In this document: positions 25,549-56,430 of the stretch, one piece after another
Numbering within the stretch: position 1 is the first letter of the stretch
Layout: each line of letters starts with the position of its first letter
From: Pseudacidovorax intermedius
Lineage (GTDB): Bacteria; Pseudomonadota; Gammaproteobacteria; Burkholderiales; Burkholderiaceae_C
Reading direction: 5' to 3'
NCBI RefSeq assembly: GCF_003350475.1
Contig: NZ_QQAV01000011.1
Location: forward strand, 1-64,000
DNA length: 64,000 bases
Made by a program: the position numbers and the translations under genes
The notes under the pieces: generated by a model
Told to the model about the DNA's origin: nothing
Seen by the model: the letters and a program-made list of their open reading frames with translations, nothing else
The model's database searches: none

Positions 25549-26991
25549 TCAGACCATCCGCTGGATCTTCTTGTGCCGCCAGATGGCGCGGTAGTACGCC
25601 GTCTGCATCAGCAGCATGGCGCAGAAGCCCATCGGGTACGCCATCCAGATGCCCTTGAGACCGAAGCGGTGGCTCATCCACCAGGCGGCGGGCACCTCCA
25701 CCAGCAGCACGGCGCCGATGGTGATGGCGGTGGGCACCAGCACCGAGCCGCTGGCGCGCATCACGCCGGCCAGGGCCGAGCCCATGCCGAAGACCACCAG
25801 GCTCCACAGCATGATGTGCAGCAGCTGCTGCGCCACCTCGATCACCGCCGGGTCGGTGATGAACAGGCCCATCAAGGGCCGCGAGGCCAGGTAGGCCAGC
25901 AGCACCAGCCCGCCGGTCAGCGCCAGGTTCATGCCCAGCGCCGTGGCCGTGATGCGGCCCAACTGGTCGGCCTTGCCGGCGCCGATGGCCTGCGCCCCCA
26001 GCACCGAGGCCGTGATGGCGATGGAGATGGCCGGGAACTGCACATAGGCGATGACCTGATTGACCGCGCCATAGGCCGCCGTCGCCGCCGAGCCGAAGCC
26101 GTTGACCAGCGACAGCAGCACCACCGCCGCCAGCGAGACCACGATCATCTGCACGCCCGTGGGCACGCCCACCTTGAGCACCGCGCGCAGCAACTGCCAG
26201 TCGATGCGCAGGTGCCGCAGCAGGGCCCGGTTGGGCGCCAGCGGGCTGCCGCGCCGGCGCAGGTGCAGGCCCATCCACAGGCTGGCGAGCACGAAGCCCA
26301 CCACCGTGGCCCAGGCCGCGCTCGCCACGCCCAGCTGCGGCAGGCCCAGCCAGCCGCGGATCAGGGCGGGGGTGAGCAGCAGGCCGGTGGCGGTGGAAAT
26401 GGCCAGCGTGTAGAGCGGCGTCATGGTGTCGCCCACACCGCGCAGCATGGCCGTGGAGAGCAGGTAGACGAACAGCCCCGGCATCGCGATCAGGATGATG
26501 CGGGCATAGGCGGTGGCGTCGGGCAGGATGTCCGGCGGCGTGCCCAGCGCATGCAGCAGCGGCCGCGTGAACAGCCCGCCGAACACCGCCACCAGCAGGC
26601 CGAACACCAGCACCACCGACAGCGCCGTGCCCGCCACGGCACGCGCCCGCTCGGGCTCGGCGGCGCCCCAGGCCTGACCGATCAGCACCGAGGCGCCGGC
26701 CCCCAGGCCGATGGTGAAGGCGATGAAGAAGAACATCACCGGGAAGAAGCCCGAGACCGCGGCCAGCGCATGCACGCCCAGCATCTGCCCGAGGTAGATG
26801 TTGTTGACGGTGCCCGAGAGCGACTGCAGCACGTTGGACAGCAGCATGGGCAGCAGGAAGAAGAGGAAGGTCTTCCAGAGCGGACGGTTGGCTGGAGCGC
26901 CCTTCGGGGCGGCTGTGCGGGCGAGCACCTGACCACCTTCGGATTCGCCTGCGGTGGAAGCGCCCTTTGGAGCGGCCGGGCGGGCGCTCAT
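25549..26991 (-). CDS. MATE family efflux transporter
   Basis: A 480-aa, 12-helix antiporter. The core starts at about residue 36 (LWKTFLFFLLPMLLSNVLQS, given in part: FLLPMLLSNVLQS) and the halves repeat at about 245 (LKVGVPTGVQMI). Typical MATE features are the IGQAWGAAEPERAR loop and SALAGVMRASGS. The first 35 residues are an unusual extension made of two copies of an (S/L)AR(P/T)AAPKGA peptide encoded by a DNA repeat. The ATG overlaps the stop of the upstream DUF2239 gene (ATGA). It probably expels cationic drugs or metabolites. Confidence 0.93.
   Translation of the reverse strand: MSARPAAPKGASTAGESEGGQVLARTAAPKGAPANRPLWKTFLFFLLPMLLSNVLQSLSGTVNNIYLGQMLGVHALAAVSGFFPVMFFFIAFTIGLGAGASVLIGQAWGAAEPERARAVAGTALSVVLVFGLLVAVFGGLFTRPLLHALGTPPDILPDATAYARIILIAMPGLFVYLLSTAMLRGVGDTMTPLYTLAISTATGLLLTPALIRGWLGLPQLGVASAAWATVVGFVLASLWMGLHLRRRGSPLAPNRALLRHLRIDWQLLRAVLKVGVPTGVQMIVVSLAAVVLLSLVNGFGSAATAAYGAVNQVIAYVQFPAISIAITASVLGAQAIGAGKADQLGRITATALGMNLALTGGLVLLAYLASRPLMGLFITDPAVIEVAQQLLHIMLWSLVVFGMGSALAGVMRASGSVLVPTAITIGAVLLVEVPAAWWMSHRFGLKGIWMAYPMGFCAMLLMQTAYYRAIWRHKKIQRMV
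26896..26928 (-). repeat. second, internal copy of the start-codon repeat
   Basis: The 33 nt encoding residues 22-32 of the MATE protein repeat, imperfectly, the first 33 coding nt of the same gene 63 nt away. They encode VLARTAAPKGA. See the copies at 26959-26995 and 55456-55492. Confidence 0.75.
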
Positions 26992-54575: not shown

Positions 54576-55463
54576 ATGGCTGGTGTGACCTCACCGGCGC
54601 TGCCGACCCCGGCAGCGCCGGTTTCACGTTCAAGGGCCGGCGGTGCCAAGCGGGTGCTGCCGGGCTTTCACCTGACGCTCGGGTACACGATCTTCTATCT
54701 GTGCCTGATCGTGCTGATTCCGCTCAGCACGCTGGTCTTCAAGACCTTCACCATGAGCTGGGATCAGTTCTGGGTGGCCGTCACCGCACCGCGCGTGCTG
54801 GCTTCGTACCGGCTCACCTTCGGCGCCTCCTTCCTGGCCGCGCTGGTCAACCTGTTCGCCGGCCTGCTGGTGGCCTGGGTGCTGGTGCGCTACAAGTTCC
54901 CGGGCAAGAAGCTCGTCGACGCGCTGGTGGACCTGCCCTTTGCGCTGCCCACCGCCGTGGCCGGCATCTCGCTCACGGCGCTGCTGGCCGGCAACGGCTG
55001 GATCGGCCAGTACCTCGAGCCGCTGGGCATCAAGCTCGCGTTCACGCCGGCTGGCGTGGTGATTGCGCTGATCTTCATCGGGCTGCCTTTCGTGGTGCGC
55101 ACGGTGCAGCCGGTGCTGGAAGACACCGAGAAGGAGCTGGAGGAAGCCGCCACCTCGCTCGGCGCCACGCGCTGGCAGACCTTCCGCCTGGTGATCCTGC
55201 CCTCGATCACGCCAGCCCTGCTCACCGGCTTCGCCATGGCCTTCGCCCGCGCCATCGGCGAGTACGGCTCCGTCATCTTCATCGCCGGCAACATGCCCAT
55301 GATTTCCGAGATCACGCCGCTCATCATCATCGGCAAGCTCGAGCAGTACGACTACCAGGGCGCCACCGCCGTGGCGCTGGTCATGCTGGTCTTCTCCTTC
55401 CTGATGCTGCTGGTCATCAACGCGCTGCAGGCCTGGCAGCGCAAGCGGGGGGTGTCGGCATGA
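54576..55463 (+). CDS. cysT: sulfate ABC transporter permease CysT
   Basis: A 295-aa permease. Family homology begins at about residue 26 ([20 protein letters not shown]), matching the E. coli CysT start RRVLPGF. The EAA loop is [21 protein letters not shown]. The first 25 residues are Ala/Pro/Ser-rich and their DNA forms a strong hairpin (54593-54622), but no other in-frame ATG/GTG/TTG is nearer, so ATG 54576 stands. It has no good ribosome site and lies 4 nt from the sbp stop, so translation is likely by coupling. The stop overlaps a linker ORF. Confidence 0.93.
54593..54622 (+). terminator. 12-bp hairpin inside the first codons of cysT
   Basis: Perfect stem ACCGGCGCTGCC / GGCAGCGCCGGT with a 6-nt loop, followed by TTCA. 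It starts 22 nt after the sbp stop. It probably works as an attenuator or RNA-stability element that makes binding protein exceed permease, comparable to the gtsA-gtsB hairpin. Confidence 0.6.
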
Positions 55464-55492
55464 GCGCCCGCACGGCCGCTCCGAAGGCCGCT
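55456..55492 (+). repeat. start-codon repeat at the cysT/cysW junction
   Basis: A 37-nt segment beginning CGGCATGAGCGCCCGC. It supplies the cysT stop (TGA) and an overlapping ATG and matches the MATE junction segment 26959-26995 (minus strand) at 34 of 37 positions, encoding [11 protein letters not shown]. Confidence 0.75.
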
Positions 55493-55528
55493 CGCACCGC
55501 AGCGCGCAGCGCGGAGGTTTTTCAATGA
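55460..55528 (+). CDS. 22-codon linker ORF between cysT and cysW
   Basis: Starts at ATG 55460, overlapping the cysT TGA, and ends at TGA 55526-55528, overlapping the cysW ATG at 55525. Both junctions are ATGA. It encodes a basic, Ala-rich peptide ([11 protein letters not shown]...SAEVFQ) from the start-codon repeat. A strong GGAGG (55513-55517) for cysW lies inside it. It could pass ribosomes from cysT to cysW; whether the peptide itself matters is unknown. Confidence 0.5.
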
Positions 55529-56430
55529 GCGGTGCGACCGGAATGCGCGCCGGCAGGGGTCGGGTGCGCGCGGGCACTACCGAATCGCCCGCCGTGCGCT
55601 GGGCGCTGATCGGCTTGGCGCTGGTCTTCATGTTCTTCTTCCTGGTGCTGCCGCTGGCCGCCGTCGCCACCGAGGCGCTGCGCAAGGGCTGGGGCGCCTA
55701 TGTGGAGGCGCTGAAGGAGCCCGACGCCTGGTCCGCCATCGAGCTGACGCTGATCGTGGCGGCCATCTCGGTGCCGCTGAACCTGGTGTTCGGTGTGGCG
55801 GCGGCCTGGGCCATCGCCAAGTACGAGTTCAAGGGCAAGGCCTTCCTCACGACGCTGGTGGACCTGCCCTTTGCCGTCTCGCCCGTGGTGGCCGGCCTGA
55901 TCTACGTGCTGGTGTTCGGCGCCCAGGGCTGGCTGGGGCCGTGGCTGTCGGAGCACAACATCAAGATCATCTTTGCCGTGCCCGGCATCGTGCTGGCGAC
56001 CGTGTTCGTGACCTTCCCCTTCATCGCGCGGGAGCTGATCCCGCTGATGCAGGCCCAGGGCACCGAGGAGGAGCAGGCCGCCATCGTGCTCGGCGCGAGC
56101 GGCTGGCAGACCTTCTGGCACGTGACGCTGCCCAACATCAAGTGGGGCCTGCTGTACGGTGTGATCCTGTGCAATGCGCGGGCCATGGGCGAGTTCGGCG
56201 CGGTGTCGGTGGTCTCGGGCCACATCCGCGGCCAGACCAACACCATGCCGCTGCATGTGGAGGTGCTCTACAACGAGTACCAGTCCGTCGCCGCCTTCGC
56301 CGTGGCCTCGCTGCTGGCGGTGCTGGCCCTGGTCACGCTGGTGATCAAGACGGTGGCCGAGTGGCGCCACGAGCGGGAGATGAAGGCCCTGGCCGAACTG
56401 CCGCCTGAGCGGCCGGCGCCCACCGCCTGA
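55525..56430 (+). CDS. cysW: sulfate ABC transporter permease CysW
   Basis: A 301-aa inner-membrane permease with six helices. The N-terminal helix is about 27-49 ([20 protein letters not shown]), the EAA loop [21 protein letters not shown], and [17 protein letters not shown] is a CysW signature. Partner of CysT in the sulfate/thiosulfate importer. The first 25 residues are Gly/Arg-rich and variable. ATG 55525 has a good ribosome site (GGAGG, 7 nt before). Confidence 0.95.

Follow-up and report, generated by a model that had tools for sequence, protein, structure and literature searches.

A dispersed hairpin repeat seated on ATGA overlaps lies between cysT and cysW and may keep neighboring genes coupled

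In the stretch of DNA that we analyzed (64,000 nucleotides, hereafter the window), the sulfate transporter genes cysT and cysW are joined by a tiny open reading frame that overlaps both of them. From sequence comparisons, we think it probable that this linker is a copy of a mobile or recently mobile hairpin repeat, which seats itself on ATGA overlaps and keeps the gene before it coupled to the gene after it. The repeat is dispersed across genomes. It has filled and empty sites in close relatives, a recurrent junction geometry, a preferred frame phase, and two covarying hairpins.

The cysT-linker-cysW junction

cysT lies at positions 54576..55463 of the window and cysW lies at 55525..56430, both on the + strand. 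Each encodes a sulfate ABC transporter permease (NCBIfam TIGR02139, 2.1e-126, and NCBIfam TIGR02140, 2.3e-127, respectively). Between them is a 65-nt unit of a dispersed repeat (55460..55524, +), which our covariance model of the repeat, R1, matches at 55460-55527 (81 bits, E = 1.5e-21). The stop codon of cysT (TGA, 55461-55463) is the first TGA of the repeat. The overlapping ATG (55460-55462) opens the repeat's mini-ORF of 22 codons (22 amino acids; 55460..55528, +), whose own stop (TGA, 55526-55528) overlaps the start codon of cysW (ATG, 55525-55527). cysT, the mini-ORF, and cysW are read in three different frames. (The frame of the linker is open far upstream through cysT, at 54701-55528, and the linker is a stand-alone ORF only if it is read from its ATG.)

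A comparison of filled and empty junctions shows that the insert is bounded by a 7-nt direct repeat, ATGAGCG. The left copy is at 55460..55466 (+), and the right copy, which contains the start codon of cysW, is at 55525..55531 (+). The alignment and pair counts place two hairpins in the unit. The left arm of hairpin 1 (55462..55469, +) has one mismatch in the window copy, and its right arm is at 55486..55493 (+). The arms of hairpin 2 are at 55502..55505 (+) and 55509..55512 (+); its outer three pairs were counted, and a fourth is present in the window copy. Inside the linker, 7 nt upstream of the ATG of cysW, the sequence has GGAGG (55513..55517, +), which is the likely ribosome-binding site of cysW.

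An earlier note on this DNA had described cysT, a tiny ORF, and cysW as doubly overlapping in three frames; had placed the ribosome site of cysW within the linker; and had traced the linker to a repeat that also opens a MATE gene. The coordinates (55456-55528) and the list of ORFs confirm the first point, the GGAGG motif agrees with the second, and matches to R1 at both sites bear out the third. The note had also proposed comparing the cysT-cysW gap in relatives. That comparison (see below) identifies a bare ATGA overlap as the commonest arrangement and the linker as an insertion.

Filled and empty sites

In 80 named cysW loci, with starts assigned mechanically, the start of cysW most often overlaps the stop of cysT, as ATGA or GTGA (35 loci). 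The start lies two bases after the stop in 11 loci and directly after it in 5, and the remaining 29 have something else. R1 had no match at E ≤ 0.01 in the regions around these 80 genes. It gave six weak matches there (best E = 0.049), one of which (L028, E = 0.087) lies over the last bases of cysT.

Among 15 congeneric genomes, the cysT-cysW junction is filled in five (G000, G002, G005, G011, and G013) and is a bare ATGA in ten. In G009 and G001, CysW is 99% identical to that of the window, yet the site is empty, and comparing the window with either of them gives an exact insert of 65 nt with ATGAGCG at both ends. ATGAGCG also bounds the inserts of G002, G005, and G013, while G011 shares only ATGAG. 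The five inserts are 65, 65, 65, 62, and 62 nt long, and all of these lengths are 2 modulo 3. On the tree of cysT and cysW, the presence of the repeat changes at least four times, and the empty G001 groups with the filled G000 and G011. Because hairpin 2 is similar in all five inserts, a single old insertion that was then precisely lost several times is as good a fit as multiple insertions.

We also compared the junction between two branched-chain permease genes (each with Pfam BPD_transp_2), which was resolved in 13 of the 15 genomes (all but G003 and G004). At this junction, G005 is filled, six genomes have a bare ATGA (G000, G001, G006, G007, G009, and G011), and six other congeneric species have a different, longer insert.

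That longer insert (L347-L352) is itself dispersed and palindromic, of the CGCAGAGGACGC / CGCGAAGGGCGC kind. It is also found downstream of cysW in at least three loci (L158, L160, and L162). This second repeat occupies the same kind of place as the first.

A dispersed repeat family

A 221-nt query around the junction matches the host genome 12 times (E ≤ 0.001). Apart from the site itself and a match limited to the end of cysT, the remaining ten cover the linker, and they include two pairs of tandem neighbors. When we searched for a 38-nt core and allowed as many as 3 mismatches, the window had a single occurrence, the linker's own, and none of 100 shuffles had any. Given the ten matches that cover the linker and the absence of the core from the shuffles, we rejected a chance origin of the linker. 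A 69-nt consensus-like query gave 45 matches in the host genome at E ≤ 10 and 18 at E ≤ 0.01, and 12 of those 18 start at the ATG. Of 60 related genomes, 24 have a match (E ≤ 0.01), and every one of the 15 congeneric genomes is among these.

R1 was built from 76 aligned copies and has 27 matches in the host genome (E ≤ 0.01). Across the taxonomic family, 171 of 299 genomes and 94 of 141 genera have a match at E ≤ 0.001, although some of the 171 rest on a single weak match and the E-values of the model are rough. (The family-wide scan scored 17 candidates per genome, and copy numbers are lower bounds.) In an order-wide sample, 17 of 399 genomes have a match at E ≤ 1e-4, and 9 of the 17 are outside the family. 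Among named records, two plasmids of Variovorax and one of Diaphorobacter carry the repeat at E ≤ 0.001, which makes the family Comamonadaceae-like.

These three plasmid records are annotated, but the linkers are unannotated in all of them. From the ATG of the repeat to the start of the downstream CDS, the distances are 65, 62, and 65 nt, and in two of the records the upstream CDS ends on the TGA of the repeat. In the third, NZ_LR594669.1, a complete copy (L406) precedes an alpha/beta hydrolase gene and has no annotated co-directional CDS upstream; this copy is a possible case of the repeat acting as a leader and ribosome site only.

The repeat also forms tandem arrays, with units every 62 or 65 nt that make chains of overlapping mini-ORFs (for example in G138, G061, G296, and G328). 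A similar array is present in the host genome (C4:220456-220623). Other arrays are at or near contig ends (L259, L287, L291, and L294), which suggests that draft assemblies understate the length of arrays.

A diverged subfamily in G000 has a different hairpin and begins ATGAGCGCGCCGGGCCGCTCCCAAGCGCG (L245 and L246; C14:20840-20904 and C5:188152-188216). Its mini-ORF also terminates exactly on an overlapping GTGA, so there may be several related coupling repeats.

Searches of other collections gave nothing similar. The 69-nt query had no match in the phage records searched, and Rfam had no match at E ≤ 0.1 over six loci. Over the window junction, Rfam gave a single match (E = 0.59), far below the gathering score. 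In a literature search of open-licence PMC papers, we found no description of this repeat.

Reading frame across copies

We then compared how copies sit between their neighboring genes. The starting set had 210 rows: 101 from BLAST, 107 from the model, and 2 added cysT-cysW copies. We dropped 45 orthologues or duplicates (including tandem neighbors), 6 rows that lack the TGA, and 1 row from the end of a contig, which left 158 non-redundant loci. The BLAST set comprises hits beginning at base 1 or 2 of the query, and 5'-truncated copies were left out (for example, L089 4649, L224 1525, and L147 1561). The regions were fetched for better matches, not at random. Start calling prefers ATG; where TTG was taken as the start, units of 58-60 resulted in several rows.

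On the upstream side, the coding frame, as judged from third-position GC, ends on the TGA of the repeat at 143 of the 158 loci, and an upstream ORF of at least 80 codons ends there at 142. On the downstream side, the phase of the gene relative to the ATG of the repeat is clear at 140 loci (18 are unclear): 101 have the overlap phase, 31 are in frame, and 8 have the third phase. Four of those eight are visible tandem arrays (L089, L266, L331, and L340). With loci flagged as multi-copy removed, 115 are clear and 12 unclear, and the counts become 85 in the overlap phase, 27 in frame, and 3 in the third phase. (L317, which was removed as multi-copy, looks like a genuine third-phase unit of 64 nt, as does one of the two units in L193.) Under equally frequent phases, the nominal probability of 3 in 115 is about 2e-16; the copies are related and come from few lineages, so the frame counts are not independent and such p-values are nominal.

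The lengths of the units show the same preference. Among the 139 of 158 loci where length was measured, 65 nt is found 81 times, 62 nt 29 times, 63 nt 19 times, 60 nt 4 times, 66 nt 3 times, 64 nt twice, and 59 nt once; no unit has 61 nt. Hereafter, we refer to loci in the overlap phase as linker-state and to those in frame as fused. In 80 of the 85 linker-state single-copy loci, the first stop of the mini-ORF is the TGA that overlaps the next start.

The distance from the ATG to the ribosome site (the body) varies, and the spacer from that site to the start varies with it. The linker-state combinations of body and spacer are 53+12 (60 loci), 50+12 (15), 51+11 (5), 48+11 (1), and 53+9 (1), all of them 2 modulo 3; two rows depart from this phase (51+12). 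In the fused state, the combinations are 51+12 (11), 48+12 (3), and 53+10 (1), all 0 modulo 3, and one row departs from the phase (53+12). A caveat is that most linker-state loci have a single combination, so the argument from compensation rests on about 22 loci.

A motif resembling a ribosome site, together with a start, is present in 84 of 85 linker-state single-copy loci, versus 16 of 27 fused ones. GGAGG itself is present in 65 of 85 versus 6 of 27. It appears that the ribosome site decays once the repeat has become coding and that the phase is held until then. Retention of the phase suggests, as its simplest reading, that ribosomes translate the mini-ORF. (A Pfam check of ten of the gene pairs found several plausible operon partners, such as FdhE with SelA and MlaE with an ABC ATPase.)

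Two covarying hairpins

With both hairpins considered together, 93.2% of cells in the alignment are paired, versus 83.3% in shuffled alignments and at most 51.0% in slid controls, and there are 98 double-change cells versus 42.3 in shuffles; such cells are tallies of sequences rather than of events. Five pairs have changes on both sides, versus 3.6 in shuffles (31 of 500 shuffles reached the observed value), and further pair types number 15 versus 13.0 (reached by 30 of 500).

When we counted distinct arms, 178 of 208 positions in hairpin 1 were paired, versus a shuffled mean of 165.9, and 0 of 5000 shuffles reached this. For hairpin 2, it was 22 of 24 versus 15.6, reached by 13 of 5000. RNAalifold alone recovered hairpin 2 only; hairpin 1 was proposed by eye and counted afterwards. 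As a single sequence, the window copy shows no folding advantage over its shuffles (z = +1.65), and two other copies have z = -1.64 and -0.53. Judging from the aligned copies, both hairpins are kept, with covariation.

In-frame copies at gene starts

The second copy in the window (26926..26991, - strand; R1 69 bits, E = 4.6e-18) is an in-frame extension of the N-terminus of a MATE efflux gene. The gene is fused in frame to the repeat and spans 25549..26991 (-; TIGR00797, 1e-73). A partial tandem copy, which covers the region of hairpin 1, follows in frame within the gene (26898..26923, -; R1 21.1 bits, E = 0.00051).

Across the 15 congeneric genomes, R1 matches the start of the MATE gene in G000, G001, and G011 and not in the other 12. 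In G000 and G001, the N-terminus has one complete copy and one partial one, whereas in G011 it has a single shortened copy (window 26898-26991, L377, and L378). So, the number of in-frame repeats at this gene varies among close species. In-frame copies sit at the starts of genes.

Mechanism and alternative explanations

How might such a repeat work? We propose that a unit of about 62-65 nt takes its place on the ATGA stop/start overlap between two co-directional genes. The unit would consist of ATGA, a mini-ORF of about 20-22 codons that contains the two hairpins, GGAGG, and ATGA, so that insertion would turn gene A / ATGA / gene B into gene A / ATGA / mini-ORF / ATGA / gene B. A ribosome on gene A would terminate on the TGA of the repeat, with the stop of gene A kept. 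It would then reinitiate at the overlapping ATG, translate about 20 codons through the hairpins, terminate on the TGA that overlaps the ATG of gene B, and reinitiate there with the aid of the built-in GGAGG. Gene B would acquire a strong ribosome site from the repeat. Because the junction reproduces itself, insertion would be nearly neutral, repeatable in tandem, and reversible via the flanking direct repeat. Because termination and reinitiation form a chain, linkage would be kept and the next insertion would meet the same target. With one extra base in the spacer, the repeat would be fused in frame and supply gene B with its N-terminus; the MATE gene is an example. For the junction in the window, we infer translation of the mini-ORF and a transfer of ribosomes from it to cysW; a dedicated mechanism that moves the repeat and the neutrality of its insertion are inferred in the same way.

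We considered a REP-type transposase as the mover. Fourteen of the 15 congeneric genomes each have one match to the REP-type tyrosine transposase domain PF01797 (L391-L404), and one of these proteins scores as NF047646 (REP-associated tyrosine transposase; 1.1e-19), below the curated cut-off. However, over the 14 loci with 1.5 kb of flanking sequence, R1 found no convincing copy (one match of 9.5 bits, E = 0.94). Across the family, PF01797 is present in 221 of 299 genomes and the repeat in 171 of 299, and the repeat is present in 14 of the 20 listed genomes without PF01797 (58 further such genomes were not listed). With no convincing copy beside the transposase gene and with the repeat in genomes that lack the domain, this link is unsupported. 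In the two loci that we read (L391 and L401), the PF01797 gene comes after the same kind of gene.

The repeat might also be an ordinary REP-like structured intergenic element, whose hairpins are kept as RNA or as single-stranded DNA, with gene B starting independently from the GGAGG and the mini-ORF being incidental. Such an element would account for the covarying hairpins and the strong ribosome site, and most of the congeneric genomes (14/15) do have the transposase domain. But it does not predict that the third frame should be so scarce (3 of 115 clear single-copy loci, with two units of 64 nt and none of 61 nt among 139) or that spacers should compensate for the length of the body, and neither the lack of a convincing copy near transposase genes nor the presence of the repeat in genomes without PF01797 (14/20 listed) fits it. 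We consider this explanation unlikely. A related idea is that the frame phase reflects inherited length only: one unit of 62 or 65 nt was copied everywhere, and its reading was not selected. Units of 65 nt (81/139) and 62 nt (29/139) do predominate, 60 of 84 linker-state single-copy loci share one combination of body and spacer, and the copies are related. Yet units of 59, 62, and 65 nt differ in their internal lengths and have spacers that compensate, and the in-frame lengths of 60, 63, and 66 nt are common whereas 61 and 64 nt are nearly absent. These patterns make inherited length alone quite improbable.

At cysT-cysW in particular, the linker could be a gene of the cys operon that encodes a small functional peptide. 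It has an open frame with a start and a stop, and a comparison of G000 with G005 gives slightly higher similarity in the insert (93.8%) than in its flanks (90.7%). Between G000 and G011, in contrast, the insert is less alike than the flanks (86.2% versus 96.1%), the peptide follows the sequence of the repeat, and the insert is absent from 10 of 15 congeneric species; because of this absence, we reject the peptide gene as very unlikely. Nothing that we found favors chance or an assembly artefact: the same junction is filled in five separately assembled species and the family is present in annotated public records, so we give that explanation almost no weight.

Relation to known repeats

The principle of coupling has a mycobacterial precedent in the MIRUs (mycobacterial interspersed repetitive units), while the host, the covarying hairpins, and the frequent N-terminal conversion differ here. 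MIRUs also form tandem copies, as this repeat does. They reportedly have no dyad symmetry (Supply et al. are said to have described this in 1997), in contrast to the two covarying hairpins here.

In the passages of PMC12548453 that concern them, MIRUs appear to be mobile and to insert at start codons, with an internal ORF coupled to the gene at a spacing of -4 nt (NTGA). The same passages of that 2025 review consider that insertion probably has a minimal effect on the gene (PMC12548453). By description, we liken our repeat to the MIRUs. Both are short dispersed repeats at NTGA overlaps (here, with filled and empty sites at two loci and 143 of 158 upstream frames ending on the TGA). In both, an internal ORF overlaps both neighbors at -4 nt (here, in 80 of 85 linker-state loci and not in the 27 fused ones). 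And both have the orientation of the flanking genes (here, upstream at 143 of 158 loci and, as overlap or in frame, downstream at 132 of 140). Unlike the MIRUs, the repeat described here has a betaproteobacterial host and carries GGAGG, and 31 of its 140 clear loci are in-frame N-terminal extensions. The earlier note had argued that the linker would link cysT to cysW by translation, and this core idea is well supported, in that the overlap phase is kept across the family of copies. A CysT:CysW ratio fixed by the linker, which the note also predicted, and a dependence of CysW expression on it are conjectures. The note had further called a repeat that restores coupling an unusual evolutionary solution. 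Its unusualness is tempered by the MIRUs, which the relevant part of PMC12548453 describes as doing likewise.

The fused copies resemble the Rickettsia palindromic elements (RPEs), which, in the portion of PMC10969869 that treats them, are palindromic repeats that lie in frame within unrelated genes. But RPEs are about 150 bp long and lie inside ORFs, whereas our repeat is 59-66 nt long and lies at gene junctions or starts, which places it outside the RPEs.

REPs are usually extragenic. Like REPs and REPINs, the repeat is a dispersed palindromic hairpin repeat in genomes with a REP-type transposase domain; unlike them, it sits on a stop/start overlap, was not found beside the transposase gene, and is present in genomes without it.

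The Beta-proteobacterial repeat element (BRE) is, in the sections of PMC3110155 that describe it, 75-91 bp at full length in Bordetella, and 4 of its 13 tabulated loci lie between convergent genes. Our repeat shares with it a high GC content, the formation of tandem copies, dispersal, and overlapping host families (by the same sections of PMC3110155). It differs in length and context, and those sections mention neither a mini-ORF nor coupling (PMC3110155), so we set the two apart by description.

Implications

The frame bias alone argues that the linkers left unannotated in the three plasmid records are probably translated. More than 100 natural gene junctions have the repeat, some with insert-free sister species, which makes the effect of one coupled mini-ORF on the downstream gene measurable. 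The findings also extend the MIRU idea, described for mycobacteria in the sources at hand, to a large betaproteobacterial family, and they show a route from a repeat to N-terminal protein sequence. Since the repeat is widespread, has recently been gained or lost between close species, and is directly testable, it is of real interest.

More tentatively, although we find it plausible, the repeat could be a self-propagating coupling cassette, a selfish element that evolved outside mycobacteria and bears its own stop, mini-ORF, ribosome site, and start: one that invades operons at almost no cost, stacks in tandem, exits without a scar, and, when it slips by one base, gives unrelated proteins new N-termini. 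If so, the cassette would both retune operons and generate protein novelty throughout an entire family of bacteria.
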